A stretch of DNA of 64,000 nucleotides from Physcomitrium patens (Eukaryota > Streptophyta > Bryopsida > Funariales > Funariaceae): contig NC_037257.1 of NCBI RefSeq assembly GCF_000002425.4, forward strand, positions 20,384,208 through 20,448,207, in the 5' to 3' direction. The translations under genes and the position numbers were made by a program. Positions 5,879 to 59,345 of this stretch are shown one piece after another; within the stretch, counting starts at the first letter, position 1, and every line of letters starts with the position of its first letter. Under the pieces are notes generated by a model. The model was given only the letters and a program-made list of their open reading frames with translations. It was not told the origin of the DNA and ran no database searches.

Positions 5879-5882
5879 TAAG

Positions 5883-5900: not shown

Positions 5901-5949
5901 AGCTTGAGGTAGAAGGTATTGGATTTCCGTTGATTTTATCTTTATTTTT

Positions 5950-7800: not shown

Positions 7801-7839
7801 GAAACTTTGAGCCATTATACTCGAAAGCATTGGGCAAGG

Positions 7840-8160
7840 GCAACTACTGAGGTATTGGTGAAGGTAGGAGATATAGAAGAACCAATAGTTGTTTTGGTGG
7901 ACCATGGTTCTGAAATAAATCTCATGTCTAAAGATCTTTATAAGAAGCAAAAATGGCCAATTGATATGGAACATGGATGGGCAATACGAGCAGCTAATAA
8001 CACACGAGGCGAATTATATGGAGCTTGTCCAGATGTCAAAATTCGGATTGGGGATGTTGCGACGGAGCAACATTTCTTCGTTCAAGATACAACGTCTTAT
8101 CCGTTGATTTTAGGACAACCTTATATCACGGCAACACGGATGGAAACAAAGGTACTTGAC
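7840..8160 (+). mobile_element. G1 aspartic protease region
   Basis: The motif VLVDHGSEINLMS (about 7889-7930) stands at the place of the retroviral-type D-[ST]-G active site, followed after about 70 residues by YPLILGQPY, which fits the second conserved block (hydrophobic-LG). The protein would cleave the Gag-Pol precursor. DHGS instead of DTG or DSG is seen also in G2, so it looks like a lineage feature. Confidence 0.75.
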
Positions 8161-10310: not shown

Positions 10311-10329
10311 AGGACGAAATGGTTGAAGA

Positions 10330-11797: not shown

Positions 11798-11847
11798 ATC
11801 AAACAGCAATAGGGTAAATTGGTGCATACCGGAGGATGCACAGGTTC

Positions 11848-11859
11848 AGAGGGGGTGGA
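11848..11859 (+). promoter_or_regulatory. G1 polypurine tract
   Basis: AGAGGGGGTGGA directly abuts the 3' LTR and is the expected primer for plus-strand synthesis. The stretch before it (GGATGCACAGGTTCA) is conserved in G0 and G2. Confidence 0.85.
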
Positions 11860-28659: not shown

Positions 28660-29150
28660 TGACAAAAAGATTTTCAAGATGGCCATGTGGTACACATGTT
28701 GAAAACTTATCTTGCAAGTTAGACATCTATCTTGCAAGTTGGATACATATTAAATGACCTATAGAATATTGTCGTGTAGATTTTTAGTTAGATAATATAT
28801 ATATATATAGATGCAAGAATGATGGCTTCATCATTCTTATCAACTCCTTTCTTACTTCTAATCTAGTTTTAAGAATTTATAGCTTTTTTCTCTTTGAAAA
28901 AAGTTATTTTAGTATTTTTTTGAAAATACATATTTTCTCATTCGCATTATGTCATCTTTCTTTGAAACACATTTCACTTATTTAATTATATTCTTTGAAT
29001 TTTTCTCCTTAACATATTGACAAGAATACACTTATAAATTTAAAACTTTGTCTTTTCTTAATAAAAAGTGGATAATCTCTTTTTCTTTATATGCATATTA
29101 GAAGGTGTAGATAATCCACTTTTAACTTGATATTATTTTTAGATTTTTTA
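28660..29150 (+). mobile_element. S1b: decayed LTR and leader of the S2-type chromovirus
   Basis: 28660-29014 aligns with the right two thirds of the S2 LTR. The start-site hairpin is at 28815-28838. Two bases after the LTR end comes TTGACAAGAAT (29017-29027), the equivalent of the S2 self-priming site, followed by a decayed copy of the leader stem-loop module to about 29130. No gag is seen afterwards. It is an old fragment. Confidence 0.75.
28815..28838 (+). promoter_or_regulatory. Start-site hairpin with compensatory change (S1b)
   Basis: Arms AAGAATGATG and CATCATTCTT pair perfectly over ten bases around a GCTT loop. In S2 the arms are AAGAGTGAAG and CTTCACTCTT. Both arms changed, including an A to T in one matched by T to A in the other. 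Confidence 0.75.
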
Positions 29151-31341: not shown

Positions 31342-31724
31342 GTTTGAAAAGAATACTAATTCATTATTCTTATCTTGTTTTAGAAGCAGATAGATTATTT
31401 TACTCTATTCTTGTATTTTAAATATTACAAATTATCATTTTTTAAACAAAAAATTTAATTTTTTAACATTTATTTTTTTTTAAAGAAAGTAAAATATCTT
31501 TTTGTGAAAATTTTAATTTTATATTTGAGGTTGTAGATTATCCTCTTCTAATTTAATTCATGGATTTATTAAATTATTTAAAATGGAAGAAAAAATCATA
31601 AATGCTATACTTAAAAAAAATGAGAATAGATTTGTAACTATTATATATCTTTATAAGCTTGTAACATTCTTAGAAAAGAAATTTCATACATCTCCAATCT
31701 CAACCACAAAAGCACTATTCCTAT

Positions 31725-32092
31725 TGTTAGGGACATAATCTTTAGAACCATCTAGAGACAAGTTTCTAGAACCTTCTAGAAGAAAGTCTTTTGAACCTTT
31801 TAGAAGCTTCTTAGTTGGTAGAAGATATTAGGGACATAGTCCTTAGAACCTTCTAGAGATAAGTTTCTAGAACCTTCTAGAAGCTTCCTACTTAGTAGAA
31901 GTTGCTTGAGAAGCTTCCTAAATAGAAGTATATATTGGAATCGAGGCTGAAGAGTTCTTCAGTTTCGACAATACATCTCTTGAAGCTCTAGCTCACCTCT
32001 CTAGTGTTGTTCTCATCTGATTAATCTAGTTCTTCCCAGTTCTTCTTGAACTTCTTGTTAGATCTCGAGTCTATAATTCTGTGTCCATGACA
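31725..32092 (+). repeat. S3 5' LTR (368 bp, with internal duplication)
   Basis: It matches the 291-bp 3' LTR but has an extra tandem copy of its first part: the TTAGGGACATA block at 31727 recurs at 31828. The rest (TATA box, hairpin, right end TGTCCATGACA) agrees with the 3' LTR. Confidence 0.88.
31928..31971 (+). promoter_or_regulatory. S3 TATA box, start-site hairpin and presumed mRNA 5' end
   Basis: GTATATATT (31928-31936) is a TATA box. A hairpin at 31941-31968 has arms TCGAGGCTGAAGA and TCTTCAGTTTCGA (13 pairs counting two G-U). The segment CAGTTTCGACAA (31960-31971) lies about 31 bases after the TATA box and pairs with 32095-32106 past the LTR. I infer that transcripts start near 31960. 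Confidence 0.65.
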
Positions 32093-32094
32093 CT

Positions 32095-32106
32095 TTGTCG
32101 AGACTG
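32095..32106 (+). promoter_or_regulatory. S3 candidate self-priming site
   Basis: TTGTCGAGACTG begins two bases after the LTR and is complementary to CAGTTTCGACAA (31960-31971) over 12 bases with one G-U pair; in the 3' LTR the partner reads CAGTGTCGACAA. No good tRNA complement is found at this position. This is the layout of Tf1-type self-priming. Confidence 0.65.
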
Positions 32107-32129
32107 CACTCACCTCAGATATCAGAGCT

Positions 32130-32330
32130 AGTTTATTCTTTATTAGAGTATGGATTACCCCTCTACTTAGAAGTGTACTAGCATTTTAGAGGTTGCGGAT
32201 TATCCTCCTCTAAACTGATACTTCTTTTGTTACAATATTGGAGTCTTATTCTTCTTGGAGAGAGTGGATTATCCCTTTTCTTGAAGTTTTTAAGGCATTT
32301 TAGAGGTTGCGGAGTACCCTCTTCTAAACC
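32130..32330 (+). promoter_or_regulatory. S3 leader with repeated stem-loop modules
   Basis: The block TTAGAGG…GGATTATCC…CCTCTAA (32186-32213) can fold with a seven-pair stem, and a second copy lies at 32300-32327. Related blocks with GGATTACCC and GGATTATCCC (about 32153-32166 and 32269-32281) precede each. The same module occurs once in S2 (40081-40150) and in decayed form after the LTRs of S1b and S1. Role unknown; packaging, dimerisation or translation control are possible. Confidence 0.55.
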
Positions 32331-32372
32331 AATATTACCTTCTTATAGAGTCATTTCTGTCCTTCTCTTAGA

Positions 32373-33390
32373 ATGGCCAGGGGTCAAGACATTAGTATGA
32401 CGAAAAGTTCAGAGTCCAAGTTGGATGCTATCATGAATGCCCTCGCTACGTTATCACAAAGAACTACAGAGATTGAAGGAGTTGTGGCAAGGCTTCATAA
32501 TGATGGAGCATCTGGAATGGCACAATCTAGGTTGCACCAGCCTCAAACTTCTACACTTGGAGAAGCAACTTTGCCTTAGGTTCGACAAGCACCGCTAATT
32601 CTACAACATAAGGAGCCCCGAGTTAGCCTTTCGAAAAAGTTCGATGGAACGCGTTCCAAGTTTCGAGGATTCGTCAACCAAATCAGGTTGATAATAGTTT
32701 TACAGCCCGAATGCTATCCAACGGAGGAGTCACGTGTTGGGCTTATTGGAACCTTATTTACAGGGCAAGCTCTATCATGGTTTGCTCCTTTGTTTGAGAA
32801 ACGATCCTCCATACTAAACAACTTTGAAACCTTTTTGGAGGCGTTTATGGAAGCATTTGGTGAACACGACAAGGTTCGATGGGCTACAACAAAGATCCGG
32901 TCACTACGACAAGGGATGCACTCTACATCAGTGTATGCATCGGACGTCAGGCAATTACATGCGACATGAATTGGGACAAAGAAGTGTTGATGAGTCAATT
33001 CTATTGGGATTTAACGGACGATGTGAAGGATTTGCTGTTAATTCTTCCTGATCCACAAACGCTCAACAAAGCTATTAGCCAAGTTATGAAGTGTGATAAT
33101 CGCCTATTCCAACGCTGCCAAGATCAACGTTCAAGACAACATACGGTTCGCCACGTCCCAACTATGTTGGCAAGCAGCGTGAATTCACATTCAGAGGTAG
33201 AAGACATGTAAATTAATGCGGTACGTGTCAAATCTCTTATTCTAGAAGAAAAAAAACGGCGTATGGAGGAAGGTCTATGCTTGTATTGTGGTGAAGAAGG
33301 CTACAAAGTTAGAAACTGCCCCAAGAAGCAAAATCGACGTATTGTCAAGACTAGGGGCACGTTTATTCAAAAAAACGAGGATGCCCAGCC
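32373..33390 (+). mobile_element. S3 gag region
   Basis: Starts MARGQDISMTKS after the leader. It includes a capsid-like retrotransposon gag segment with FDGTRSKFRGFVNQI (about 32640), TGQALSWFAPLFE (about 32760) and FMEAFGEHD, and ends in a CCHC knuckle CLYCGEEGYKVRNCPK (about 33278-33325). Same architecture as S2. Confidence 0.78.
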
Positions 33391-33499
33391 ACAATAGGAA
33401 CCGTGCGGCTGGACAGTAAAACATCGCAACAACAACCAGGTTCCTTTCGTTTCGCTCAACCTACCCTTTGTTTTACAATCCCTTTGCTTATTGGCCCTT

Positions 33500-34690
33500 A
33501 GAAACTGAGAACCTTAGCATTATTAGATTCAGGAGCATCTGCTTCTTTCTTAGATGAAGAATTTGCGAAGCATCATAAGATCCCTTTAGTACAAAAATCC
33601 AAACCTGTTCACGTTGAGGTCATAGATGGGCGACCTTTATTGTCTGGTAGTGTCACCCATGAATCAGAACATATAGAAGTGATATTTAAAGGCCATAATA
33701 GTCATATTATTTTCAATATTATTAGAACCCCATCAAATCCTGTTATTCTTGGTCTTTCCTGGTTGAAAAAGCATAACCCATCCATAGATTGGAAGTTACG
33801 GAAGATGACCTTTCCCACAAAACCACCCAAGAGCAAGCCTAGTAGAAAACCCCGAATAGAGAAATCCTTATTTATTGTAGCAAGAGCGTTTATAAGATCA
33901 TCTAAGGAAGGCACACCGTTTATCATTTATGCGGCTCCAACTACCGGAGAGAAGATCTCGACAACAAGTATATCAGAGCAATATAAGGATTTTAAAGACG
34001 TGTTTCAAAAGAAAAATGCCGACATGCTACCGGAACACAGACCATATGATTGCGCCATAGACTTATAGGAAGGAGTACAACCGCCTTTTGGCTCAATCTA
34101 CAATCTATTGCAAACGAAGTTGGCGAAGTTGCGGAAGTACATCGATGAGAATCTAGCCAAGAACTTCATCCGTCATTCAAAATCGTCAACTGGAGCACCC
34201 ATCTTATTTGTGAAGAAGAAAGATGGCTCATTGCGGATGTGCGTGGACTATCAAGGCCTCAAAAAGGTAGCAAAGAAGAATCATTACCCGTTACCCTTGA
34301 TTTCTGGTCTCTTAGAACAACTTGGAAGTATAAGGATTTTTACAAAAATTGATCTAAGGAGAGCTTACAACCTCGTAGGAATCAAGGAAGGAGATGAGTG
34401 GAAGACAGCATTCCGTACAAGGTATGGCCATTTTAAGTATAATGTCATGCCCTTTGGTCTTACCAATGCTCCAGCGATCTTTCAACATATGATGAATGAC
34501 ATTTTTTAAGAGTATCTTGACGATTTTGTTGTCATCTATTTTGATGATATTCTTATATTCTCCAAAAATGAGGAAGAGCATGAAAAGCACGTTCGTTTGG
34601 TCTTGTAGAAACTACGCGAGCGAGGACTATATGCTAAGTTGGAGAAGTGTTTATTTCACCAAATAGAGATGGAATTTTTGAGGTTCATTG
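33500..34690 (+). mobile_element. S3 protease and reverse transcriptase region
   Basis: The protease block is LDSGASASFLDEEFA (about 33523). The reverse transcriptase shows the Tf1/sushi style: [71 protein letters not shown]. Its YxDD position (about 34538) reads FDD in this copy. Confidence 0.82.
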
Positions 34691-35180
34691 CGACTATAGA
34701 AGGCTTGAAGATGGATTCCAAGAAGGTGGAAGCAATTGTGTTCTGGGAGGTTCCGAAGACGGTGAGAGACGTACAATGCTTTCTTGGCTTTGCCAACTTC
34801 TATCAGATCTTCATCAAGAATTACTCTCAAGTTGCTGCTCCTCTCACTCGGTTGACATGCAAGGATAAGCTAGAATGGGGACCTCTAGCGGAGAAGGCGT
34901 TTCAAGACCTAAAAATCACATTTACTACGGATCCAATCTTGGTACATCCAGACTTTATAAAGGCCTTTTATTTAGAAAATGATGCTTCAGATTTTGCTTT
35001 GGGAGCTGTACTTTCACAAATGGGAGAAGACAAGAAGCTCTATCCGGTTGCATTCTATTCTTGAAAGTTCTCTACTGCTAAAATCAATTATGAGATCTAC
35101 GATAAGGAACTTCTTGCTATAGTGGATTCTTTCCAAGAATGGCATCATTTTCTTGAAGGAGCTGCACACCCAATGACCGT

Positions 35181-36391
35181 TGTTGTGTTGTAACACGAGT
35201 ATATTGTGAAAATATAATGAAAGAAGACTTTTATTAATGTTTAGTTATCTCAAATATTAGGAGCAATGACCAATTCCAAAGCAAATACTGAGAGGCTAGG
35301 TTCAGTCATCCCGTTACAATTAGCCAGGGCATATTGAAATGCTCCATTCGATTCCAATAACGGCAAACAGCAGGAAGGAAAAGGACCAATTCACACGATG
35401 GGTGAGCCTGATTCGAAGAGCCAATTGGATCCAATTTCAAGACATCCAATCCAGATCCTATTACGGGCCTCTTATCCAATATGAGACCTGACTTGGTCAG
35501 ACAACCCAATGCGGACCAATTTTGAGAACATCTAGGTTACTACGGGCCTCTTAGCCAATATGAGACGTGAATTCATCGGGCGATTCAATGTGGTCCTGAT
35601 TACGGGGCTCCGATTCTGTTTCAGGCTATTCCGTCCTTTGTGCCATTCCGGGAACGTCCTTTCGATAAAAGGATCTCTTAAAGGTAAAAACGGAGAAAAA
35701 AACTCTGATGGCGGGAGCCAATTTTGGATCCAAGATGAAAGATTGAAGAAATTCAGAGGCTAGGATTTTGAGAGAGGAAAGAATTAGGGTTAAAGGGGAA
35801 GATAGGTTAAGAAATGAAAGGGGAGAGAAGAAGTTTTTTAGAAGGGTCGGAGAGCTAGTTTCATGCTTCGGGGCGGGGAAAAAAGATAGAGAATTGGGGT
35901 TTTTTTTCTTCATAGGGTTTTTGGGAAGACTGAGGTAATCGTTGCTGAAGTCAGTGTTGTAATGGTGAATCGGGATTTTTAATGAAGTGCGTGTGATTAC
36001 TCTTGACTGTTTTGTGAAATCGAATTACGTCTATGATGAAGAATTAAAAGGGTGTTTATAAGATTGAGTATGTGGAGTGAATGAAATTTATTGGGTTAAT
36101 CTAACGAGACAGTCAGTGGTTACAAAATCGTGAGTATAAAGCGGTATCAAAGATTAGCAGTTTGGGTTGTTCGGGGTTCTCTGTAACGTCTAGAGACCTA
36201 CCGGCTGAGGCAAAAAGGATTTTGGCGAGCAGTCGAAGGACATCCGTATAGATTTATGATATATTTTTGTAATTGTTTATATTCCAACAGTCAAAAACCG
36301 ATAAACTGCTTGAATATTAGCGAATCTCCATACTACCTTTTACAACCGGACGCCCGGCGCGTTCTCGAGCAGGAAAGCACGTAATACGACA
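35181..36391 (+). repeat. G2 5' LTR
   Basis: 1,211 bp starting TGTTGTGTTGTAACACG and ending GTAATACGACA. It aligns with the G1 LTR apart from the 65-bp tandem units and nearby sequence that G1 has in addition. Confidence 0.88.
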
Positions 36392-36395
36392 AAAG

Positions 36396-36413
36396 TGGTG
36401 AACTTGACGTGAA
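36396..36413 (+). promoter_or_regulatory. G2 primer binding site, tRNA-Trp type
   Basis: TGGTGAACTTGACGTGAA differs from the exact tRNA-Trp complement in G1 by two C to T changes. It begins five bases from the LTR end, as in G1. Confidence 0.8.
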
Positions 36414-36461
36414 AGCATGAGGTGGAAGGTATTGGATTTCATTTGATTTTATTTTTATTTT

Positions 36462-38850
36462 ATGGAAAACGAAAATAAAAATTTTGAAGGATCTTTGGGA
36501 GGAGTTTCTGGTAGGGGTTCTTTTAAAGGACAAGGTATGCACATGGATCCGTCTATTGCTAGTATGTTTCAAGCCTTCTCATTATCAATGCTGCAACAAC
36601 AAAGCAATGATCGAAAGGAAGCTTTGGCAACCAAAGCATTACAAGCAGTGGTCAATAAAATTGATCAATTTGATTGAAGGAATATTTCAAGGTATTTAAG
36701 ATGTTATGTTCGTGAAATGGAATTAAATCGGGTTTCTGAGAAGAAAATGGTTGAATTATTTGGACTTGCCACGATACCTGAGATAAGAGACCATATTACA
36801 TCGATTATGGATTGTTATAGGAATTCATAGGAGGTTTTTTCACATGCATTGAAAGACGAATATTTCTTGGAAGATATTGATCGCGTTACTAAGAAGTTGT
36901 TTCTGGAATGGATTAAACGACCTAATAAGAATTTGCAAGCAATAGAGCTACGAAGGGAATTTGAGAGGTAGTACTCTTAATTATCGAAGGTAGAAAAATT
37001 GACATTGGAGCCGAACAAAGTTGATCTATTTCTTCAAGCTGCTGATGGAAAATTGCAAGGGAAATTAGAACTCCTTCTTGAAGACAAAGAAGAAGATGAA
37101 GGATTGACAACAAAGTAGAAGAACGTTAAAGATGCAATGGGGTTGCTTACAAAAAGAGAAAGGAGGAAGGATAGGGGTAATACTCCGAAAACAGTACAAG
37201 CACCCAAAGCTCCAATACGTACAACACCACCAACAATGCCTACAGTTCAACCTTCGACATCCTTATCAAAGAAAGCAGATAAGGGGATGGAAGAAATTAT
37301 ACGAGGAATGCGAGATCTTCAAATCAAATTGACAAGACTTGAAGAGAATAATTCTACAAACAATTCGAAGAATGTTTCAAAACAAGGATATGTACAAAGA
37401 TGCATTTGGTGTGATGACGCTTCACACACTAGAAAAGATTGCAATGAATTTAATAATATTATATGGCAAGGAATTATTTGCTGGAAAGATAGGAAGATAG
37501 CATTAAAAGATAGGGAAGATCTTCTTCAAATCAATTTTGGCAAGGGAAGAATGAGAGCATTGGTTTAAGATTACTTAAAAGAGCATGAAACAGTAGCACG
37601 AAAAAGTGCAAGTTATGGTGCTAGAATAGATGATGACCTTGGTGGAAGAACGGAAACTAGTGAGTTTTGGGCTTCTGCCATTTCTACAATGCAAGAAGGA
37701 AAATTACCTCGAGAAGCGTTATTGAGGACTGCAGCTACAATACGAGGTGCAACAGGTTGGGAGGATCCTGTTGAGTCTCTTTCAGTTCATGCATATATTG
37801 CTAAGAGCAAACATGAAGCTTTGATGGAAGAAAAGAGATGAGGAAATTTTGATGATACGAGAGAAGGAAATTCTTCTAAGAGGCAAACTCGAGGAGACAA
37901 GGCTCGGGAGGCAGCTTCATAAGAATTGCTTGTAAAGGATACCTCAACATCATTGGAAGAAAAAACAAAGGAGACAAAAGATAAGGGCAAATCAATTCCT
38001 TATAAGCTACTTTCTGACATTGAAGTGGCAACAAATTTAAAAGGGGTGTTGGAAGAACGTATATTAAACGCTAAGGTGGAATTCACATTGAAAGAAGTCT
38101 TGGGAATTGCAAAGAAGGAGTTTCATGATGTTATCATTGACAGCATTAAGCGAAAGAGGAAATTAATGGGTAAAACTAGAATGAGTCATGCTATTGATGC
38201 AAGAATATATAAAGATGAAGAAGAGGTTGACATTGGTTACAAGCAACCAAAAAATGAAAAGAATGGGTATAATCAACGAGTACGTTTCAAAGATTATAGT
38301 GATAAGGAAATAGAAATTTTGAGTCATTATACTCGAAAGCATTGGGCAAGGGCAACTACTGAGGTATTGGTGAAAGTAGGAGATATAGAAGAACCAATTG
38401 TTGCTTTAGTCGACCATGGTTCTGAAATAAATCTTATGTCTAAAGATCTTTATAAGAAGCAAAAATGGCCAATTGATATGGAACATGGATGGGCAATACA
38501 AGCAACTAATAACACACGGGGCGAATTATATGGAGCTTGTCCAGATGTCAAAATTCGGATTGGGGATGTTGCGACGGAGCAACATTTCTTTATTCAAGAT
38601 ACAACGTCTTATTCGTTGATTTTAGAACAACCTTATATTACGGCAACACGGATGGAAACAAAAGTACTTGACGATGGTTCTGCTTATGCAAGGGTACATA
38701 GCGAAGATGGGAGGAAAGCTGTATAATTTCTAACAGTACCTCCTAACCATGAATGGAATCGAGATAGGTTGACGGAGAAACCATTGCCAAAGATTGTTGA
38801 AGGATTTAAGGATTTTGAGAAGGTACCACTATAAAGCGAGATTATGGAGG
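36462..38850 (+). mobile_element. G2 gag and protease region
   Basis: The sequence follows G1 closely from the first ATG (MENENKNFEG) through the knuckle CIWCDDASHTRKDC (about 37407) to the protease block ALVDHGSEINLMS (about 38402) and the TTSYSLILEQPYITATR block. The conservation of DHGS here and in G1 argues that this is the family's active-site form. Confidence 0.82.
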
Positions 38851-39471
38851 TACAAAAGAGGAGGTACTCTTGCGAGATAAAGGTGCCTTTGATGCGAGTT
38901 TTTATTGGTATTTTGGAGAATGGAAATATTATGTATAAAAAGTTGATTATTTTAAAAAAGAAAGAAAGAAAAAGATTATATGATATTGAAGGAGAATTAT
39001 GCAAGTTAGGTACGTAGCAAGAAGATGAAAGTGATTTGGATAATGAAGGTGACAAAGACGAACTGGACAAAAACATAGAGAATATATTTTAAATCAAATA
39101 GCAATTAGATAAATTGGTGCATACCAGAGGATGCACAGGTTCACAGGGAGAGGATGTCATATTGTAATACGAATATACTGTGAAAATATAAAGAAAGACT
39201 ACTTTTTATTAATGTTCAGTTACCTCGAATATTAGGAGCAACGACCAATTCCAAAGCAAATACTGAGAGGCTAGGTTCAGTCATCCCGTTACAGTCAGCC
39301 GAGGCATACTAAAATGCTCCGTTCGATTCCAATAACGAGAGTCAACAGGAAGGGAAAGAACTAATTCACACAATGGGTGAGCCTAGTTTGAAAAGCCAAT
39401 TGGATCCAATTTCAAGACATCCAATCCAGATCCTATTACGGACCTCTTACCTAGTATGAAACCTGACTTGG

Positions 39472-40032
39472 TGTCACGACCATAATCATGTAAGCTAATA
39501 ATTACATATACAAATAGGTAGAAGTAAGTAAAAGTAGGTAAAAATAAGTTAATTCTATAATATTTAATATGAAAGCTTTTTAGAAGCTTCCTAGATGCTG
39601 CTTTAACTTCATAGGTATCTTTAATTGGCTTTTTGGATTAGAAACGTGGTCAACGAGTTGGCCATGTGCCACACATGTTGTTAGCTTGAAGATCAAGCTA
39701 ACTATGTGGCCCACATATAGAAAAACTTGCCTTATAAGTCAAGGCATGTGTCCTACAAAGTCAACACATATTGGAGGTCCTATAGAACATCGCCATGTAG
39801 CCCCTAGTTAGATAGTATATATAGAGATAAGAGTGAAGGCTTCTTCACTCTTGTCAACTCCTTTCTTGCTTCTAGTCTAGTTTCAAGGGTCTCTAGTTTT
39901 CTTGTCTTTTGGCAATAGCCATTCCAGTTTCTATTTCAATATATATACTTGTTTATATATATTTTGTTACCTCTATTTGAGTGAAGGCTCACTTGTCTCA
40001 ATTGTTTTTTCATCGAGTTCTTGTCCTTGATA
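39472..40032 (+). repeat. S2 5' LTR
   Basis: 561 bp starting TGTCACGACCATAATCATG and ending GTCCTTGATA (the 3' copy ends TTGACA). It holds the TATA box and start-site hairpin. Confidence 0.92.
39816..39857 (+). promoter_or_regulatory. S2 TATA box, start-site hairpin and presumed mRNA 5' end
   Basis: TATATATA at 39816-39823 is followed by a perfect ten-pair hairpin at 39829-39852 (arms AAGAGTGAAG and CTTCACTCTT, loop GCTT). ACTCTTGTCAA at 39847-39857, about 31 bases after the TATA box, is the exact complement of 40035-40045. The 3' LTR has the same elements (hairpin 45657-45680, loop CCCT). Confidence 0.7.
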
Positions 40033-40034
40033 AA

Positions 40035-40045
40035 TTGACAAGAGT
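40035..40045 (+). promoter_or_regulatory. S2 candidate self-priming site
   Basis: TTGACAAGAGT starts two bases after the 5' LTR and pairs without mismatch over 11 bases with ACTCTTGTCAA (39847-39857), the presumed 5' end of the transcript. Tf1 of fission yeast is established to self-prime with the first 11 bases of its mRNA. Same layout in S3, S1b and S1. Confidence 0.7.
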
Positions 40046-40080
40046 ACACTTATAATATCAGAGCTTTATCTAATCTTGAT

Positions 40081-40150
40081 TAAGAGTAGATTATCCCTTT
40101 TTCTTGATAAGATATAAGCGTATTAGAGGTTGCGGATTACCCTCTTCTAA
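40081..40150 (+). promoter_or_regulatory. S2 leader stem-loop module
   Basis: Two stem-like blocks: AAGAGTAGATTATCCC… (40082-40105) and TTAGAGGTTGCGGATTACC… closing with CTTCTAA (40123-40150). S3 has the module twice. Found before gag. Confidence 0.55.
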
Positions 40151-40244
40151 ACTGATATTGTCCTTAGTATTTTCTTTGTCCGCAAGTCCTCTTTTCTATT
40201 TGCCTTGAGGGATATTAGATATCTTCTCTCTTCTAAGTGTTATT

Positions 40245-41230
40245 ATGGCAAAACTTCTTGAAATGAAGAGTACAATGGTACAAATACAAGAACAATTGAA
40301 GGAGTTAATGCTTGCAATGCATCAACTCAATTTACCACCACAAAGAGCAACAAGATTGGTAGGAAGTGAAGATATAGAAATGGTTGGAGTTGCTTCAACA
40401 TCTGTACCAAATCATGTCCTTTCTCCTATGGTCGAACGTCCTTCAAATACTAGAGAACCAAGAATTGCCCTACCCGAGAAGTTTGATGGCACCAGATCCA
40501 AGTTTCGAGGATTTATCAATCAAGTGCAACTTGTGATTGAACTTCAACCCCAAAGCTATCCAACTCCAGGATCGCAAGTTAGATTCATTGCTTCTTTTAG
40601 GTTCAGCATTATCATGGTTTTCATCTTTTTTTGAATGACAAGATCCAATATTGGATTATCTAGAGGCTTTTCTGGCAGAGTTTTGATTCATGTATAGAGA
40701 ACATGATACAATTTGTGTTCCAACCAATAAGATCCATATTTTACGACAAGGCAATTGATCAATAAAGTTATATGCTTCATAATTTTGACAACTTGCAATT
40801 GATATCAAGTGGGATGATGTTACACTTATTAGCCAATTTCTCTATGGATTATAATATGAGGTAAAAAAATTAATGCTCAACTTACTTGATCCTCAAACAT
40901 TGAGTCAAGCAATTGACTTTGTTGTGAAGTGCGACAATCGCCTTTTTGAATTCCGATCTGAGAACCGTACAAGTGGACCTCAACGTTACTATAATTCAAT
41001 GGCAATACCAACATCTCTTCAACACATACATTCGGAAGTAGAGGATATGCAAATTGATGCAGAACGTTTCAAACCTCTTACTGAGCAAGAAAAGACTTGT
41101 CATCGTCAAGAAGGATTATGTTTATATTGTGGAGAACCAAAGCACACTGCTCAGCATAGTCCAAAGAAACGATGCACTCACAAAATGAGGAGTATGGCTG
41201 TGAAAGAAGATAATATGTCGGAAAACTAGT
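40245..41230 (+). mobile_element. S2 gag region
   Basis: Starts MAKLLEMKSTMVQIQEQL, a likely short coiled coil. The core has LPEKFDGTRSKFRGFINQV (about 40470-40530). A CCHC knuckle CLYCGEPKHTAQHSPKK is at about 41117-41168. It would form particles and bind the RNA. Confidence 0.8.
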
Positions 41231-41369
41231 TTGTCTAGCTACAATAGGGACCGTGCGGCTGGAACCTTGCACAACTTCTAGTAAAGGTCATATTCTCTCC
41301 TCAAAGCCCTCTCCTTATTTTACATTAAATATTATTTGAGGACCTCAACATTACAAAGTCTTTGCCTTA

Positions 41370-43170
41370 TTAGATTGAGGAGCCTCAGCGTGTTTTTTAG
41401 ATGAAGAATTTACTAAAAGACATAGCATATCTTTAGTATAGAAAACTAAACCTGTTCATGTAGAAGTCATAGATGGTCGTCCATTATCTTCTGGAGATAT
41501 TACTCACGAAACCCTTCCTATAGAAGTAATAATCAATAGTCATAATAGTTTTGTAGTATTTAATATCATTAGATCTTCCTCTAATCCAGTCATTTTAGGT
41601 TTATCATGGTTAGAAAAATACAACCCATAAATAGATTGGATTTCCCGAATACTTACTTTCTCTAAAAGTATAACTAACAGTGTAGTTAAGCAAGTAGAGA
41701 GTCATAAGTCCAGTTCAATTAAATCCATATTTATAGGTGCAAAAGCTTTCTTTCTTACTACTATGAAAGAATCACCATACATTATTTATGCTACACCCGT
41801 TTCTACAAGTGAAAAGACTTCAAGTGGCATTCCAAGCCAATATCAAGAATTTCAAGATGTATTTGAAAAAAAGAATGTAGATACACTCCCAGAACATCGT
41901 CCCTATGATTCCTCAATTGACCTTCAAGAAGGAGCACAATCGCCATTCGGACCAATCTATAGTTTATCACAAAATGAGTTGGCTAAACTCAAGGAGTATA
42001 TTGAAGAAAATCTAGCCAAGAATTTCATACGCCATTCTAAATCTTCGACAAGAGCTCCAATTCTATTTGTGAAGAAAAAAGATGGATCGTTGCGGATGTG
42101 TGCTGATTATCGAAGACTCAACAAGATTACCATCAAAAACAGGTATCCACTACCTTTAATATCCGGACTTCTTGATCAACTGAATTAAGCTAAGATCTAT
42201 ACAAAAATAGATCTTCAAGGAGCATACAATCTAGTACGCATCAAAGAAGGAGATGAATGGAAGACTGCATTTCGAACTAGGTATGGACATTTTGAATACA
42301 ACATCATGCCTTTTGGACTTACAAATGCACCAGCAGCTTTTCAACATCTAATGAATGATGTTTTTCGAGAGTTTTTGGACGATTTTGTGGTATGTTATCT
42401 AGACGACATCTTGATCTATTCTAAGAATCCAAAAGAATATGAACTTCATGTTCGTCGTGTGTTACAAAAATTAAGAGATGCAAGACTCTATGCCAAGATA
42501 GAAAAGTGTGTATTCCACACTACTCAAGTCAATTTCTTAGGTTACATCATTTCAAATGATGGACTTATGATGGATCCTAAGAAAGTTCAAACTTTTATAG
42601 ATTAGAAGATCCCAAAAATGGTAAGAGATGTCAAATATTTTTTAAGATTTATCAACTACTATCAAATCTTCATCAAGGACTTGTCTCGACTTACAGCTGC
42701 ATTTACACGTTTGACTTGTAAAGACAAACTCCAATGAAATCAAGAAGCGGAAGTTGCTTCTGAATCTTTGAAGACAGCGTTTGTTTCTCCACCAATCTTG
42801 TATTGTGTTGATTTTTTTAAAGCATTTTTTATGGAAATAGATGCATCAAACTTTGTTCTAAATGCGGTTATATCATAAATGGGAAGAGATGACAAACTTC
42901 ATCCAGTAGCCTTTCATTCAAGAAAATTCTCAGCAGCAGAAATCAATCATGAGATCCACGACAAAGAACTTCTTGCAATTGTGGATTCTTTTCAAGAATT
43001 ACGTCATTATCTAGAAGGCGCTTCTGATCCAGTCACCGTGTATACGGATCACAAGAACCTCGAATATTTTATGTCAACACGCGTATTAAATTGTCGCCAA
43101 GATCGTTGGAGCACGTCTTTATCAAGATTCGAGTTCATCATTACTTATTGGCTAGGAAAATAACAAGGTT
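41370..43170 (+). mobile_element. S2 protease, reverse transcriptase and RNase H region
   Basis: The protease lies around 41370-41640 (LILGLSW-like second block near 41590). Reverse transcriptase has [69 protein letters not shown] and the catalytic [10 protein letters not shown] (about 42391-42420). RNase H has [20 protein letters not shown] and [11 protein letters not shown] (about 43037). The style is that of the Tf1/sushi-like chromoviruses rather than of common angiosperm Tekay/CRM/Reina elements, by memory. Confidence 0.85.
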
Positions 43171-43299
43171 TATCCAATGCCTTGTCTAGACGTTCTTATC
43201 TTGTACCAAAAGAAGGAAATGCAGCTTTTGAGCAACAAAAAATGGTTCTCTTGAAACCGAAACAATTTCATCTTTGAGCAATAAAATCAACATTGACTG

Positions 43300-44720
43300 T
43301 CGATTTAACTTTCCTTAAGCAAGTCCAATTAAGTATGTCTTCAGACCCTCTTGTTCATGATATCAAGAACAATTCTTCTAAATCTCATGATCCATTTAAA
43401 TTTGAATTCAAGAACAACCTACTCTATTTCGAAGGATGCCTATATGTTCCAGAAGGAGAAGCTCGTTTACGTGTTCTTCAAGCTCATCACCACTTCCTAA
43501 CAACAGGACATTTTGGATATAATAAGACTTTGGAGCTGATATCTAGGGATTTTTGGTGGCCTCAAATGTGGAAGGCAGTTAAAGATTTTGTACAATCATG
43601 TGAAGTTTACTCAAGATCGAAAACTCCTTGTCATTGACCTTTTGGACTTCTTCAGCCATTACCCATTCCAGAACAACCATGGTCTTCTGTTTCTATGGAC
43701 TTCATCACGGATCTTCCAATCTCAGGTTCTTATGACTCTATATTCCTGATAGTAGATCGTTTTACCAAGATGGCACATTTTGTACCATGTACAAAATCTA
43801 TCACAGGTGAAGAAACAGCTAAGCTCTTTCTTGGCAATATCTATCGCTATCATGGATTATCCAAGGATATTATATCAGATAGGGGAACTCAATTTGTATC
43901 AAGATTTTGGCGGACTCTTTTCAAGATTCTAAAAGTGGATATAAAACTATCTTCGACATTCCATCCTCAAATTGAAGGACAAACGGAGCGTGTTAATCAA
44001 GTTTTGGAGCAATATTTAAGATGTACCATTAATTACCAACAAGATGATTGGACAACTCTTTTGCCATTGGCAGAGTTTGCTTACAATAACACGGTACACT
44101 CTTCTACAAAACAAACATCTTTCTTTGCTAATTATGGTTATCATCCACGACTTGATACTTTTGACTTTTCAAAAGTTGATAATCCTGCTGCAAAAGATTT
44201 GGCGATTCATTTATCAGAGCTACATGCAACGATGAAGGCGTAGTTAAAAGAGGCTCAAGAACAACAAAAGGCCAATGCGGATGTCTATCGAAAGGAACAA
44301 CCATCATTCGTCTTGGGTGATAAGGTATGGCTACTTTGTCGCAATATCAAGACCACTCGTCCTTGTGACAAGTTGGACTATCGAAGGCTGGGACCATTTT
44401 CTATTTCTGCACAAATCAATCCAATTGCATATCGTTTATATCTATCGGAGTCAATGAAAATCCATCCAGTATTCCATGTGTCTCTTCTTGAACCATATAA
44501 GTCAGTGGACATACCAAGAAGACGACAAGCTCCACCTCCTCCTATAGAAGTGGACAATAATGAAGAGTTTGAAATAGAAGAAGTCTTAGATTCAAGGCGA
44601 CGCCGAAATAAATTAGAATATCTTGTCCATTGGCGTGGATATGGTATTAGTGAACGCACATGGGAGCCAATAAAGAATCTTACAAATGCAGCAAAGGCGG
44701 CGGAGGCTTTTCATCGATGA
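43300..44720 (+). mobile_element. S2 integrase with C-terminal chromodomain
   Basis: The HHCC part is H-x-FLTTGHFGYNKTLELI with DFVQSC (about 43487-43605). The core has VSMDFITDLP (first D), ISDRGTQFVSRFW (second D, about 43877) and a QTERVNQVLEQYLR block with E (about 43980). After a GPFSI and HPVFHVSLLEPY block comes a chromodomain: EIEEVLDSRRRRNKLEYLVH, then WRGYG and ERTWEP with the aromatic residues expected of a chromodomain (about 44570-44700). Chromodomains direct insertion to chromatin with particular histone marks. Confidence 0.88.
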
Positions 44721-44835
44721 CATCCATTAAAATCAAGTTGAAAACCTTCTTTATAAAAGAAACAACATCTAGGCAAGATAACATTCTATTTTCAATTCTT
44801 GTTCATAGCTTCATTGTAGTAGTGGCGCTCAAGAG

Positions 44836-45258
44836 ATGGAGAACCAACAACCAGCGGATTCAACTCAAGAGCCTTCATTTGCTGATCTGCCGGACGAGAC
44901 ATTACGATTGTCACAACCATCAAGACGATGCAATCGAGATGAAGATCTTCAAGAACAACATGTTCTTCCTCGAATAGATGGTGAGATACAACGCGTTTGG
45001 TATCACAATTTGGGAAGGGACTCCCAATGTTTGGTGATTTTGCTAGAGGTAGGAACAACTCCTGATGGTGTTCCAAATATTCTATTCGAAGGAAGTTACG
45101 AAGGCCTCAATAATGATCAAATAACTGGGTGGTCTTCCTGCCCTAGTATGGGACACTACCGATGGTTGAGAGGCCCTATCAATCATCTTCGAAGAGAACA
45201 GAGATCAGAGTATGTGGCAAATATAATTTGTCGCATCATAGATTTCCTTAACATATGA
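44836..45258 (+). CDS. Extra reading frame of S2, downstream of the chromodomain
   Basis: A 140-residue frame beginning MENQQPADSTQEPSFADLPD lies between the end of integrase and the polypurine tract, the place where envelope genes stand in some LTR elements. It is hydrophilic, acidic at the start, with a basic SQPSRRCNRDEDLQEQ stretch (about residues 27-42), a LVILLEVG strand-like block (about 67-74) and a conserved GHYRWLRGPINHL block near residue 110. I see no signal peptide, membrane segment or known domain, so it does not look like an envelope protein. Remnants of the same block (GHYRWLQG in S3 near 48830; YYQWLRGAINYL in S1 near 58300; HYHCLKRSIDYL in S4 near 59256) show that the frame belongs to the lineage. 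Function unknown. It would need its own start by splicing, re-initiation or an internal promoter. Confidence 0.7.
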   Translation: MENQQPADSTQEPSFADLPDETLRLSQPSRRCNRDEDLQEQHVLPRIDGEIQRVWYHNLGRDSQCLVILLEVGTTPDGVPNILFEGSYEGLNNDQITGWSSCPSMGHYRWLRGPINHLRREQRSEYVANIICRIIDFLNI

Positions 45259-45285
45259 TGACCGCTCCTCGTGGAACTCGTCTCT

Positions 45286-45299
45286 AGAAGGGAGGGTAA
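45286..45299 (+). promoter_or_regulatory. S2 polypurine tract
   Basis: AGAAGGGAGGGTAA immediately precedes the 3' LTR. Confidence 0.8.
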
Positions 45300-45860
45300 T
45301 GTCACGGCCATAATCATGTAAGCTAATAATTACATATACAAATAGATAGAAGTAAGTAAAAGTAGGTAAAAATAAGTTAATTCTATAATATTTAATATGA
45401 AAGCTTCTTAGAAGCTTCCTTGACGCTGCTTTGACTTCATAGGTGTCTTTAATTGACTTTTTGGATTAAAAACGTGGTCAACAAGTTGGCCATGTGCCAC
45501 ACATGTTGTTAGCTTGAAGATCAAGCTAACTATGTGGCCCATTCATAGAAAAACTTGCCTTGTAAGTCAAGGCATGTGTCCTACAAAGTCAACACATATT
45601 GGAGGTCCTATAGAACGTCGCCACATAGCCCTTAGTTATATAGTATATTTAGAGACAAGAGTGAAGCCCTCTTCACTCTTGTCAACTCCTTTCTTGCTTC
45701 TAATCTAGTTTCAAGGGTCTCTAGTTTTCTTGTCTTTTGGCAATAGCCATTCCAGTTTTTATTTCAATATATATACTTGTTTATATATATTTTGTTACCT
45801 CTCTTTGAGTGAAGGTTCACTTGTTTGAATTATTTTTTCATCGAGTTCTTGTCCTTGACA
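45300..45860 (+). repeat. S2 3' LTR
   Basis: 561 bp, partner of 39472-40032, starting TGTCACGGCC and ending CCTTGACA, followed by CTTGG. Confidence 0.92.
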
Positions 45861-46755
45861 CTTGGTCACATAATCCAATGCGGACCAATTTTGAGAACAT
45901 CTAGGTTACTACGGGCCTCTTAGCCAATATGAGACTTGAATTCATCGGGCGACTCAATGTGATCTTGATTACGGGGCTCTGATTCCGTTTCATGCTGTTT
46001 CATCCTTTATACCATTCGAAGAACGTCCTTTCGGTAAAAAGATCTCTTAAAGGTAAAAACGAAGGAAAAAGCTCTAACTACGGGAGCCAATTTCGGATCC
46101 AAGATGAAAGATTGAAGAAATTCAGAGGCTAAGGTTTTGAGAGAGGGGAGAATTAGGGTTAAAGGGGAAGATAGGTTAAGAAATGAAAGGGGAGAGAAGA
46201 AGTTTTTTTAGAAGGGTCGGAGAGCTAGCTTCATGCTTTGGGGCGGAGAAAAAAGACAAAGAATTGGGGTTTTTTTTCTTCATAGGGTTTTTGGGAAGAC
46301 TGAGGTAATCGTTGCTGAAGTCAGTGTTGTAATGGTGAATCGGGATTTTTAATGAAGTGGGTGTGATTACTCTTGACTGTTTTGTGAAATCGAGTTACGT
46401 CTGTGATGAAGAATTAAAAGGGTGTCTATAAGATTGAGTATGCGGAGTGAATGAAATTTATTGGATTAATCTAACGTCAGTGGTTACAAAATCGTGAGTA
46501 TAAAGCGGTATCGAAGATTAGCAGTTTGGGTTGTTCGGGGTTCTTTGTAACGTCTAGAGACCTACCGACCGAGGCAAAAAGGATTTTGGCGAGCAGTCGA
46601 AGGACATCCGTATAGATTTATGGTATATTTTTGTAATTGTTTATATTTCAACAGTCAAAAACTGATAAACTTCTTAAATATTAGTGAATCTCCATACTAC
46701 CTTCTACAACCAGATGCTTGACGCGTTCTCGAGCAGAAAAGCATGTAATACGACA

Positions 46756-48430
46756 TCGTATATACAAATCACAAGAATTTGGAGTATTTCATGTCGGCTT
46801 AAGTTCTAAATCGATATCAAGCTCGGTGGAGTATGTTGCTATCTAGGTTTGATTTTGTTATCACTTATCGACCTAGAAAGCAGCAAAGACTATCTGATGC
46901 CTTATCGAGGAGATCGTATCTTGTACCAAAGGCTAGAGAAGCAGCGTTTGATCAATAATGTATGACGTTGTTGAAGCTAGAGCAATTTCAACTTCGCGCT
47001 ACTATTGTGCCAATTGATGTTGACTTCTTGAATCAGGTACGTGTCGCAACCATTAAAGATTCAGTAGCTATTGATATCAAGCAGCATACCAATGATGACA
47101 AATTCAAGGTGGAGGGAGATCTTTTATACTTTGAGGAGCAGTTGTATATCCCAATAAGTCCAGCACGACTCCGAATTCTTCAATCTCACCATGATTTTCC
47201 AGCTGCGGGACATTTTGGATTCAACAAGACCTTGGAGCTTATTTCTTGAGATTTTTGGTGGCCCCAAATGTGGAAGGATGTGAAAGATTTTGTCCTCTCC
47301 TGCGACATCTGTTCAAGATCCAAGAATCCTCGGCATCGCCCTTATGGACTCTTACAACCATTGCCGATTCCATGTCGACCATGGTCTTCAGTTTCCATGG
47401 ACTTCATCCCGGACCTTCCATCATCGAATTCATTTGACAGCATCTTTGTCGTGGTAGATCGGCTTACAAAGATGGTGCACTTTGTTCCTTGCAAGAAGAC
47501 ATCATCCACTGAAGTTACAACAAGGCTCTTTCTCGATAATGTGTATTGATATCATGGACTACCAGATGATATCATATCAGATTGAGGAACCTAATTTGTA
47601 TCAAAGTTTTGGAGATCTCTCTTTGAGATACTGAAGGTGGATATCAAACTTTCTTCGGCTTTTCATCTTTAAACTGACGGCCAAACGAAACGGGTGAATC
47701 AAGTCTTAGAACAATACTTATGATGCAGCATCAACTATCAGCAAGACGATTGGACCACATATCTGTCGCTAGTCGAGTTTGCATATAACAACACCTTTCA
47801 TGCGTCGACTCAATACACACCATTCTTTTTCAACTATGGGTATCATCCGAAGCTTGATTTATTGAGTGTGTCAACAAACAACAATCTAGCAGCTGAAGGA
47901 TTTGCGAAACAACTATCAGAGCTTCAAAATACGTTGAAGCTTCAATTACAATCCGCTCAAGAATCCTACAAGGCGTCTGTAGACAGATTTCGGAATCAAG
48001 CACCTACTTTCAAAATTAGAGATAAAGCATGGCTTCTTCGATGGAATATCAAGACCAAGCGACCATGTGATAAGTTGGACTATCGAAGATTGGGACCATT
48101 TATCATCCAAAAGCAAATCAATCCAGTGACGTACCGTCTAGAATTATCGGCTTCTATGAAGGTACATCCAGTCTTTCATGTTTCTCTGTTAGAGCCTTAT
48201 CGAGAGTCGTCTTTTCTTGGAAGAGTACAATATCCGCCACCTAGTATTGAGATCGAGAACCACGAGGAATACGAGGTTGAAAAGGTACTGGACTCACGAC
48301 GAAGGTGGAACAAGTTGGAGTATCTTGTTCATTGGTGCAGCTATGATATTAATGAGCGAACGTGGAAGCCAGCTGAAAATCTCACCAATGCGCCACAAAA
48401 GGTACAGGAGTTTCATCAACAACATCTTCA
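46756..48430 (+). mobile_element. S3 RNase H end, integrase and chromodomain region
   Basis: The S3 homology resumes directly after G2 at the [10 protein letters not shown]-like block. The integrase has HHDFPAAGHFGFNKTLELI, DFVLSCDICSRSK (about 47286-47325), VSMDFIPDLP (about 47391) and GPFIIQKQINPVTYRL. The chromodomain reads YEVEKVLDSRRRWNKLEYL with WCSYDINERTWKP (about 48270-48410). Integrase and chromodomain are clearly related to S2 but in a different family. Confidence 0.85.
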
Positions 48431-48586
48431 TAAATCTAAGCCGGTTTGACGATAGCTTCCTTCTGAAGCTTGCTCACCTAAAAATATAAGAAAGGGGGAG
48501 AGTACCACCAAAATTTGTAGTTGATGTAGTTATTTTTTCCAAGATAAAATAGAATTTTTTCTGTAGCCATAGTTTGGTCTTCTGAT

Positions 48587-48960
48587 ATGGATAGCCAAGA
48601 GATAGAAATTATGCCAATCAGATTATCTCAACCGACTAGCTCACGAAGGCGACCCCGAGATGAAGAACTGCCTATACCATGACGACGACGGAGGATACCA
48701 AGTAATCGATCACTGGTGATTGTATTTGAATTCGAGCCTGCTTACGATGGTCAGCCAGAAGGCGTGTTTGCAGGACAATTTCATAATGAGGACACGAAAG
48801 TTCATGCTTTGTCAGAAGTTAAGGAGTGGGCCACTATCGTTGGCTTCAAGGGTCGATGAACCACTTGCCTCAAGAACAACAGTTGGAGTTCATAGCAGAC
48901 GTTATGCGACAGATCTTCATTTTCTTGCGTTGGTACTGATCAACAACATTGCTTCTCAAA
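48587..48960 (+). pseudogene. Remnant of the extra reading frame in S3
   Basis: A region beginning MDSQEIEIMPIRLSQPTSSR downstream of the chromodomain has LVIVFEFEPAYDGQPEG (compare LVILLEVGTTPDGVPN in S2) and a GHYRWLQG block near 48830. It is the counterpart of 44836-45258 and broken in this copy. Confidence 0.65.
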
Positions 48961-48972
48961 GACCTCAAAGCT

Positions 48973-48986
48973 AAAGGAGGGGGTGA
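48973..48986 (+). promoter_or_regulatory. S3 polypurine tract
   Basis: AAAGGAGGGGGTGA abuts the 3' LTR. Confidence 0.8.
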
Positions 48987-49277
48987 TGTTAGGGACATAA
49001 TCTTTAGAACCTTCTAGAGACAAGTTTCTAGAACCTTCTAGAAGCAAGTCTCTGGAATCTTTTAGAAGCTTCCCAGTTGGTAGAAGTTGCTTGAGAAGCT
49101 TCCTAAATAGGAGTATATATTGGAATCGAGGCTGAAGAGTTCTTCAGTGTCGACAACACATCTCTTGGAGCTCTAGCTCACCTCTCTAGTGTTGTTCTCA
49201 TCTGATTAATCTAGTTCTTGTCAGTTCTTCTTGAACTTCTTGTTAGATCTCGAGTCTGTATTTCTGTGTCCGTGACA
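48987..49277 (+). repeat. S3 3' LTR (291 bp)
   Basis: Starts TGTTAGGGACATAATC and ends GTCCGTGACA, followed by CCTAT. Hairpin at 49126-49153. Confidence 0.9.
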
Positions 49278-49530
49278 CCTATATATACGAAAGTAGTTTA
49301 AAGTCTATGCCAAAAGTTGTATAGTTGAAGGAAGCAAGTAAATCAACCTGACAACCAAATTCAAGAAGTCTTGTTTTTACAAACATGAGAGAGATAAGGA
49401 TTAATATGTATGAGAAGTTTGATAGAACAAGATCAAAATTTTGAAGTTTTTTACAACAAGTTAAGCTCTATTTAAGATTGCATCTTTTCTAATATCTTGA
49501 TGGATTTGTTTAAGTTGGATTCATAGACGC

Positions 49531-57813: not shown

Positions 57814-57969
57814 ATGTTAGCAACAATGTATAGTTAGTTCATCATAATATCAAGATTAAGAATAGTAAATTATTGCTATAAAAAAATATTAAAAAATATA
57901 AAAAAATCCAAAAAAGATAGCATTTTACTATCTTTTTTTCTTTGAAATTTTTGTGTATTTGTGGTGATA

Positions 57970-58400
57970 AGAAAATGGAAAAAAAACAACTAGAAAATTC
58001 AATTCAAGAGTTATTATTTGCTGACTTATTAGATAAGACATTGCAATTATCACAACCATTAAGAAGAAGTAATTGAGATGAAGATCTTCAAGAACAACAT
58101 ATTTTTCTTCAAATAAATGGCAAGATGCAATGTATTTAATATGACAACCTAAGAAGAAACTTCTAATATTTGGTATTTTTATTAGCAATAGAAATAATTC
58201 TTAATAGTATTTCTAATATTTTATTTAAAAAAATTTTAAAAAAACCTCAATAATAATCAAATAATAGGATGGTCTTTCTATCCTAGTATAGGATACTATC
58301 AATGGCTAAGAGGAGCTATCAACTATCTTCAAAGAAAACAAAGATTAAAGTATGTGACAAATATAATTTTGCCACATTTTGGATTTTTTCAACATATGAT
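57970..58400 (+). pseudogene. Remnant of the extra reading frame in S1
   Basis: DNA-level match to 44836-45258 of S2 from the ATG region (MEKKQLENS-like) to the YYQWLRGAINYL block near 58300. Broken; noted because it shows that the frame was already in the older lineage. Confidence 0.65.
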
Positions 58401-58440
58401 GATTGCTCCTTGTAGAACTTGTTTCTAGAAGAAGAAATAA

Positions 58441-58590
58441 TGTCACTCAAATACATATTTATTCCAATAATTACTTATATGATTTGATAGACATAAATAA
58501 AATTAGATTGATTTCATAATATCTTTTAAATAAGCTTTTTAGAAGCTTTATAGATGCAGCTTTGACTTTAAACATGTTTGTAATTTATTA
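58441..58590 (+). repeat. S1 3' LTR, left part only
   Basis: TGTCACTCAAATACAT after the purine tract 58424-58440 aligns with the S2 LTR start. The homology ends near 58590 where S4 begins. Confidence 0.65.
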
Positions 58591-59345
58591 ATGGATTTAT
58601 AAACTTTATTTGAAATATTTGATAGTAAAAAATCAAAATTTCAAGGATTTTTTGATCAAGTACAACTTGTGATTGAGCTTTAATTTTAAAGTTTTTCAAC
58701 TCCAAGACTATAAGTTAAGTTTATTAAAATACTCATTTCACATTTAATTTTATTATGGTTTCTATCTTTTTTAAACAAGATAATTTAATATTGAATGATT
58801 TAGAGGCTTTATTAAAAAAATTTAATCCATGTATAGAGAATATGATATAATTTTTATTATAACTTACAAGGTTTGAATTTGGCATCAAAGCAATACATAA
58901 AAGAACTCATCTTAAGAACCATTACTTTATTTTACAATAGACATTTTTTAAGATCTAAAAATTACAAAGCCTCTTTAGTATTAGATTCAAGAGTATTAAC
59001 TTATTTTTTAGATGAAAAATTTGTTAAAAGATAAAAAATATCTTTAGTAAAGAAAACAAAGCTTCTACAAGTAGAAGTCATAAATAGTTATATTTTGTCT
59101 TTTGAAAATATTATCTATGAAATTAATCTTGTAGATGTAGCAATAAATGGTCATAATAGCTTAATTTTATTAAATATTATTACATCTCTTTCTAAAATAA
59201 TTATTTATAATAATAATAATGAAATAATAAGATAATCTTTTCATATTGGTATAACACACTATCATTGCTTAAAAAGATCTATTGATTATCTTCAACAAGA
59301 AATTTTAATTAATATATAGAAGAAGCATAAAAAAGAAACATCATG
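58591..59345 (+). mobile_element. S4: short chromovirus fragment
   Basis: Pieces resembling S2 in order: gag (SKFQGFFDQVQLVIEL, about 58630), protease (about 58960-59170) and the tail of the extra reading frame (about 59250-59310). Reverse transcriptase and integrase are not seen. Strongly decayed. Confidence 0.6.

Follow-up and report, generated by a model that had tools for sequence, protein, structure and literature searches.

Evidence for mRNA self-priming in the family of a decayed chromovirus from Physcomitrium patens

S2 is an LTR retrotransposon of ~6.4 kb in the window, by which we mean the whole 64-kb stretch of Physcomitrium patens DNA that was analysed. The copy is dead, and the chromovirus family that it represents very probably primes reverse transcription with its own mRNA. 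Self-priming of S2 had been proposed in a sequence-only reading of this DNA. The proposal is strengthened here by a second element of the window (element C) and six contigs from elsewhere, in which the geometry recurs although the 11- or 12-mers are different ones, and by a pairing that covaries, all of which was obtained by sequence comparison.

The features of S2 and of two neighbouring elements are collected in Table 1. The two LTRs of S2 are 561 bp each and share 94.6% identity over 559 aligned bp, and the terminal CA of the 5' LTR has decayed to TA. Because reverse transcriptase, integrase, SH3_Tf2-1 domain and chromodomain sit between the LTRs, S2 is assigned to the chromoviruses. Its pol frame (41631 to 44718) carries in-frame stops at 42186, 42603, 42735 and 42876, and further ones at 43161, 43275, 43635 and 44241.

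Table 1. Positions of S2, C and B features in the window
Feature	Position	Strand	Remark
S2 target site duplication CTTGG	left 39467-39471, right 45861-45865	.	same letters on both flanks
S2 5' LTR, TGTCACGACC...CCTTGATA	39472-40032	+	aligned to 3' LTR, plus target site duplication
S2 TATA box TATATATA	39816-39823	+	first T 31 nt before predicted RNA start
S2 inverted repeat over predicted RNA start	39826-39855	+	13-nt arms 39826-39838 and 39843-39855; 4-nt loop
S2 predicted mRNA nucleotides 1-11 (self-primer) ACTCTTGTCAA	39847-39857	+	second copy 45675-45685, in 3' LTR
S2 predicted self-primer binding site TTGACAAGAGT	40035-40045	+	2 nt past 5' LTR
S2 folded leader module	40052-40161	+	closing stem contains iMet-like TATCAGAGC (40056-40064)
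S2 reverse transcriptase piece (RVT_1)	42189-42605	+	bounded by in-frame stops
S2 integrase core piece (rve)	43638-44243	+	
S2 integrase SH3_Tf2-1 domain and chromodomain	44244-44720	+	
S2 3' LTR, TGTCACGGCC...CCTTGACA	45300-45860	+	aligned to 5' LTR, plus target site duplication
S2 inverted repeat, 3' LTR copy	45654-45683		
C target site duplication CCTAT	31720-31724 and 49278-49282		
C 5' LTR	31725-32092	+	
C predicted self-primer AGTTTCGACAA	31961-31971	+	3' LTR copy AGTGTCGACAA, 49146-49156
C predicted self-primer binding site TTGTCGAGACT	32095-32105	+	2 nt after LTR
C 3' LTR	48987-49277		
B predicted self-primer ATTCTTATCAA	28833-28843	+	10/11 pairs
B predicted self-primer binding site TTGACAAGAAT	29017-29027	+	2 nt after LTR end 29014

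Primer and binding site in S2 and its neighbours

The 11-mer TTGACAAGAGT is complementary to ACTCTTGTCAA at 11 of 11 nucleotides. Because the target duplication marks where the LTR ends, the site in S2 can be said to begin 2 nt after it. The positions of both 11-mers and their full complementarity are as described in the sequence-only reading, and the 2-base gap is borne out by the LTR pair and the CTTGG duplication. The placing of ACTCTTGTCAA at the expected mRNA start also stands, with the TATA box upstream and a predicted RNA start at A39847 in a CA dinucleotide.

In the mechanism that we propose, RNA polymerase II would start at A39847, as the TATA spacing and the CA start suggest. Nucleotides 1-11 of the mRNA would then fold back to the primer-binding site (PBS), for which both the complementarity and the covariation described below argue. 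By analogy with Tf1, the RNase H of the element would cut behind nucleotide 11, and from the 3' end so released minus-strand DNA would be primed through the 2 spacer nucleotides into U5. Plus-strand synthesis would later copy the attached primer back into the binding site; thus primer and site would stay matched in each cycle.

In the first chance test, random 16-nt stretches of the window were compared with any place in the LTR; a draw landing on the LTR itself was passed over and not replaced. Out of 3000 draws each, an equally good match turned up 31 times for S2, 98 times for C and 175 times for element B. Equal matches are not rare in this AT-rich window, hence the bare match of S2 is not overwhelming. 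At the predicted start ±3 nt, a match was reached by none of 4000 shuffles for S2, none of 4000 for C and 5 of 4000 for B. As a further control, three PBS-like patterns preceded by GACA or TGACA and a 2-nt gap were collected from IMG/VR stretches, giving 73 occurrences that were taken as chance. An exact complement 60-700 nt upstream was present in 0/73, and for 71 of them the upstream sequence ran to 300 nt or more.

Element C is a second chromovirus in the window, with the same geometry as S2 and a different 11-mer. Its primer AGTTTCGACAA lies 32 nt past a TATA box and forms 10 Watson-Crick pairs and one G-U pair with TTGTCGAGACT; the 3' LTR copy AGTGTCGACAA makes 10 of 11 pairs with the same site. 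The complementarity predicted for other copies of the family is kept at all three 5' LTR/PBS junctions of this group found in the window (11; 10 plus G-U; 10/11).

Two non-chromovirus gypsy elements of the window, M and N, served as controls. TGG stands 4 nt past the LTR in both, as is usual for tRNA-primed elements, and the best LTR complements at their sites reach 9/11 and 8/11, respectively. Element M (4476-13262) is young, with LTRs of 99.8% identity and an open 836-aa pol frame, and its primer site TGGTGAACCCGACGTG is presumably tRNA-Trp-like. Among the 120 listed of the 251 matches to the 836-aa frame, only Riccia sorocarpa, R. fluitans and the fern Adiantum nelumboides are named. These names point to a non-seed plant as host, probably a bryophyte. 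In element N, 37923-38726 matches DUF4100 weakly, at 24.1 bits and so under the cut-off of 27.9, and DUF4100 is also found on a Riccia sorocarpa retroelement protein among the listed matches of element M. The repeat map points to nested insertions in 31725-49277, where N (~35.2-46.8 kb) would lie within C, and S2 within the 3' LTR of N.

Relatives outside the window and covariation of the pairing

Scanning of GTDB genome contigs with a reverse transcriptase alignment yielded 19 contigs (L001-L019), which are taken to be eukaryotic contamination in bacterial and archaeal genomes. Six of them, namely L001, L002, L004, L005, L006 and L016, show the complete geometry together with an exact pair of 11 nt. 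The pair of L002 extends to 12 nt, and that of L001 is the perfect form of the primer/PBS pair of element C. In the other five contigs the pair begins 2 nt past ...ACA, and a TATA box lies 32-33 nt upstream. The six were picked by exact complementarity, and the 2-nt spacer, the TATA box and the CA start were no selection criteria. LTR ends in the outside contigs were placed by the ...ACA before the spacer and not by an LTR pair, a search for which found none in L001-L019. L002, L004 and L015 each begin and end with the same 55 bp, which looks as though the assembly had circularised one collapsed LTR, and L007 holds a 66-bp repeat of 75.8%. L007 also retains a PBS, TTGTTCACCTC, with a decayed primer copy. 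No match with the geometry was found in the remaining 12 of the 19 contigs, many of which are without the upstream region or have LTR ends that could not be placed.

A Trichormus MAG of run ERR2144891 is the origin of L002-L007, L016, L018 and L019. Since Trichormus azollae lives as a symbiont of Azolla, this fern is the likely source of the contigs, and five of the six geometry-bearing contigs are probably from Azolla. For the pol of L001, the closest of the outside elements, the named relatives comprise six frogs, one chytrid, one alga and one amoeba (nine named among 120 listed of 7956 matches). The description of S2 as both sushi-like and a plant element agrees with these kin of L001 and with the liverwort Riccia as kin of element M.

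Nine elements (S2, B, C and the six contigs) were compared position by position. Standard pairs between R and the PBS occupied 98 of 99 cells, a count inflated because the six outside contigs had been chosen for exact pairing; slid controls gave 32-48 of 99. Position +2 alone is occupied by four pair types (CG, TA, GC and AT). S2, B and C were chosen independently of pairing, and S2 and C differ at 3 of 11 positions with the change on both sides. At the start position, none of 4000 shuffles reached the R:PBS score of eight of the nine elements, and 5 of 4000 did so for B. RNA folding gave mean R-PBS pair probabilities of 0.60-0.96.

The inverted repeat over the predicted start and other readings of the match

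A second covarying partner of the primer was observed upstream. In eight of the nine elements, an inverted repeat links the end of U3 (20-odd nucleotides) to R nucleotides 1-9, with its centre ~6 nt upstream of the predicted start. Its perfect stem (Watson-Crick plus G-U) measures 13 bp in S2, 10 in B, 12 in C, 13 in L001, 12 in each of L004, L005 and L016, and 9 in L006. Such stems were reached by few of 4000 shuffles (S2 1, B 12, C 10, L001 1, L004 0, L005 0, L016 0, L006 49). No start-straddling repeat was found in L002, whose value was reached by 860 of 4000 shuffles. Across the eight elements, R:U3 pairs filled 68 of 72 cells compared with 23-32 after sliding, a count that leans towards pairing because the repeat axes came from stems found beforehand; position +2 again shows four pair types. 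Folding of the 3' LTR copy of S2 gave -20.3 kcal/mol (z -5.15). When the U3 side is included, R1-9 is paired to U3 at a mean probability of 0.88-1.00 in the eight elements and 0.18 in L002.

An RNA that starts at +1 has a 5' end without the U3 arm and hence without the hairpin, and its 3' end can fold. Since only the 3' copy can do so, the hairpin may lock the second primer copy. It would hide that copy at the RNA's 3' end as well as the corresponding complement in minus-strand DNA, and the 5' primer copy, which starts inside the repeat, would stay free for the binding site. We tentatively suggest, at somewhat less than even chances, that in plant self-priming chromoviruses the hairpin acts as a lock on the 3' primer copy, that the U3 arm amounts to a further copy of the PBS, coevolving with the primer, and that this arrangement reaches ferns as well as bryophytes. 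A self-priming RNA has the primer sequence at both ends, which raises the question of how the wrong copy is kept from competing, a problem that tRNA-primed elements never face.

The same repeat is what speaks for a different reading, in which the primer match is real but secondary: U3, R and the leader would have a repeated motif in common, such as the dyad of a transcription factor, and the element would be primed by another route. An inverted repeat of the same sequence straddling the start in eight of nine elements is what such a motif would give. A protein site, however, would conserve its letters, and here the letters vary and the pairing is kept, both between R and U3 and between R and the PBS. 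Moreover, the exact 2-nt spacer past the LTR is a prediction for a primer site, and in L002 R pairs with the PBS although the dyad is missing. This reading is therefore considered very improbable.

Slightly less probable still is that S2 is an ordinary tRNA-iMet-primed plant chromovirus, with a decayed PBS TAATATCAGAGC at 40053-40064 and a coincidental 11-nt match. TAATATCAGAGC is identical at 10 of 12 letters to TGGTATCAGAGC, which we take to be the plant iMet primer site; a score of 10 occurred in only 19 of 3000 random 96-nt stretches, and in element C almost the same position is taken by AGATATCAGAGC. Yet neither S2 nor C has TGG, the partner of the CCA end of the tRNA; the candidate site is 20 nt off the LTR, and TATCAGAGC, found in S2 and C, is absent from the eight other junctions checked (B, L001, L002, L004-L007 and L016). 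A PBS resembling TGGTATCAGAGC was not found 0-5 nt after the S2 LTR. A good tRNA complement at the site would have spoken against the sequence-only reading; TGG is absent from the first 8 nt past the LTR at 10 of 10 junctions. TATCAGAGC is, in addition, one strand of a compensated stem that closes a folded leader module. In S2 this stem is formed by AATATCAG, the 5' strand holding TATCAGAGC, with CTGATATT; the same stem is formed by AATATTGG/CCAATATT in the second module of C and by ATATTGG/CCAATAT in L001, and it is lost in B. The iMet reading of S2 was rejected on the missing TGG, the distance from the LTR and a motif explained by the stem, and the tRNA resemblance of TATCAGAGC is best taken as coincidence.

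Leader modules were also observed at 32112-32338 (two in tandem, in C) and at L001:300-410. Folding of the module is only moderately above that of shuffles (z -2.08, 8/200), and a packaging or translation signal is a possible role. Rfam and ARAGORN searches of the 64-kb window returned nothing.

Relation to known self-priming elements

Priming by the element's own mRNA is described for Tf1 of fission yeast. According to the available text of PMC7175516 and PMC10085805, the first 11 nt of the Tf1 RNA act as primer, the RNA is cut between nucleotides 11 and 12, and the complex is a pretzel of three duplexes. Like Tf1, S2 has next to the 5' LTR a site to which the first 11 nt of the predicted RNA are complementary, and an integrase with a chromodomain (PMC7175516, PMC10085805, for the parts accessible). 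The three-duplex pretzel is not significant in S2. The central duplex is present in all nine elements. The upstream flank, between the LTR end and the post-primer sequence, is significant in L002, L004, L005 and L006 (reached by 4, 1, 2 and 0 of 300 shuffles, respectively) and non-significant in S2 (29/300), L016 (68), C (125), B (231) and L001 (279). For the downstream flank, L006 alone may reach significance (14/300).

S2 most likely belongs with the Tf1/sushi-like chromoviruses and to the Tcn1 type of non-seed plants. In a reverse transcriptase tree of 25 rows, built without seed-plant or named Tcn1 references, 4 of 22 forks were well supported, which is too few for clades to be placed. The chromodomain was aligned to CDY/CDYL, and the cage aromatics are kept at all three positions in S2 (F/W/Y) and C (Y/W/Y). 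These positions correspond to Y24, W45 and Y48 of group I chromodomains in the accessible text of PMC3350952. Among non-seed plants, cage-type chromodomains are described there and in the available part of PMC6317226 for Tcn1, for the algal Chlamyvir and for some Galadriel-like Selaginella elements. Since such Galadriel-like elements keep the cage as well (PMC3350952, as far as its text is available), the cage is no proof of Tcn1.

The sequence-only reading had held a self-priming chromovirus lineage in a plant to be new, and this was overstated. In the available text of PMC6317226, from 2019, most Tcn1 chromoviruses of mosses and club-mosses are predicted to be self-priming, and other chromovirus groups of plants are stated not to use this mode. 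The self-priming of S2 is thus not new in kind, being preceded by that prediction. Non-seed host, predicted self-priming and aromatic-cage chromodomain are all shared by S2 and the Tcn1 elements of mosses and club-mosses (PMC6317226 and PMC3350952, in their accessible parts). As reported in the portion of PMC2864245 available, neither a tRNA priming site nor self-priming was found in SM-Tcn1 of Selaginella, Tcn1 is present in basidiomycetes too, and Tcn1 PCR was positive in 0 of 26 ferns and horsetails, although the authors allowed for failed PCR. The difference from Tcn1 as hitherto described is that the probable Azolla contigs carry the layout into a fern, where the PCR of PMC2864245, in the same portion, was negative. 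Two points thus go beyond the earlier prediction: the probable fern members, and the inverted repeat over the transcription start that covaries with the primer. Neither the hairpin nor self-priming in ferns was found described in the open-access literature searched, as far as its text was available.

The seed-plant chromoviruses (Tekay, Reina, CRM and Galadriel) share with S2 the order gag-PR-RT-RH-IN-chromodomain. They differ in being mostly tRNA-Met-primed, and the cage is limited to non-seed plants (PMC6317226 and PMC3350952, in the text available); S2, by contrast, is without TGG at the site and has kept the cage. Plant self-priming has also been predicted for the TAR lineage of Ty1/copia (Houba, Osr-1) in the accessible part of PMC6317226. 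That lineage belongs to another superfamily, whereas the reverse transcriptase and integrase of S2 are those of a chromovirus.

The comparative evidence over sequence-unrelated primers argues that self-priming chromoviruses are real and are maintained in non-seed plants, a fern probably among them. It also bears on how such elements came to be shared by fungi, animals and early plants.

Three protein scans of IMG/VR viral contigs found no relative. The neighbours of the S2 reverse transcriptase include one from the rust fungus Austropuccinia (59%), and protein P0002, filed under Kitasatospora, matched it at 81%. A fungal host, in which self-priming would be nothing unusual, had been considered in view of the Austropuccinia match, the weak DUF4100 match and the presence of Tcn1 in basidiomycetes (PMC2864245); with Riccia prevailing among the named matches of element M, and DUF4100 found on a Riccia protein too, this reading was rejected as very improbable. 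Between the chromodomain and the 3' LTR of S2 lies a 149-aa open frame (44809-45258) without a Pfam match. This region has a diverged copy at 57889-58597 with 70.7% DNA identity, and the alignment extends into the LTR.
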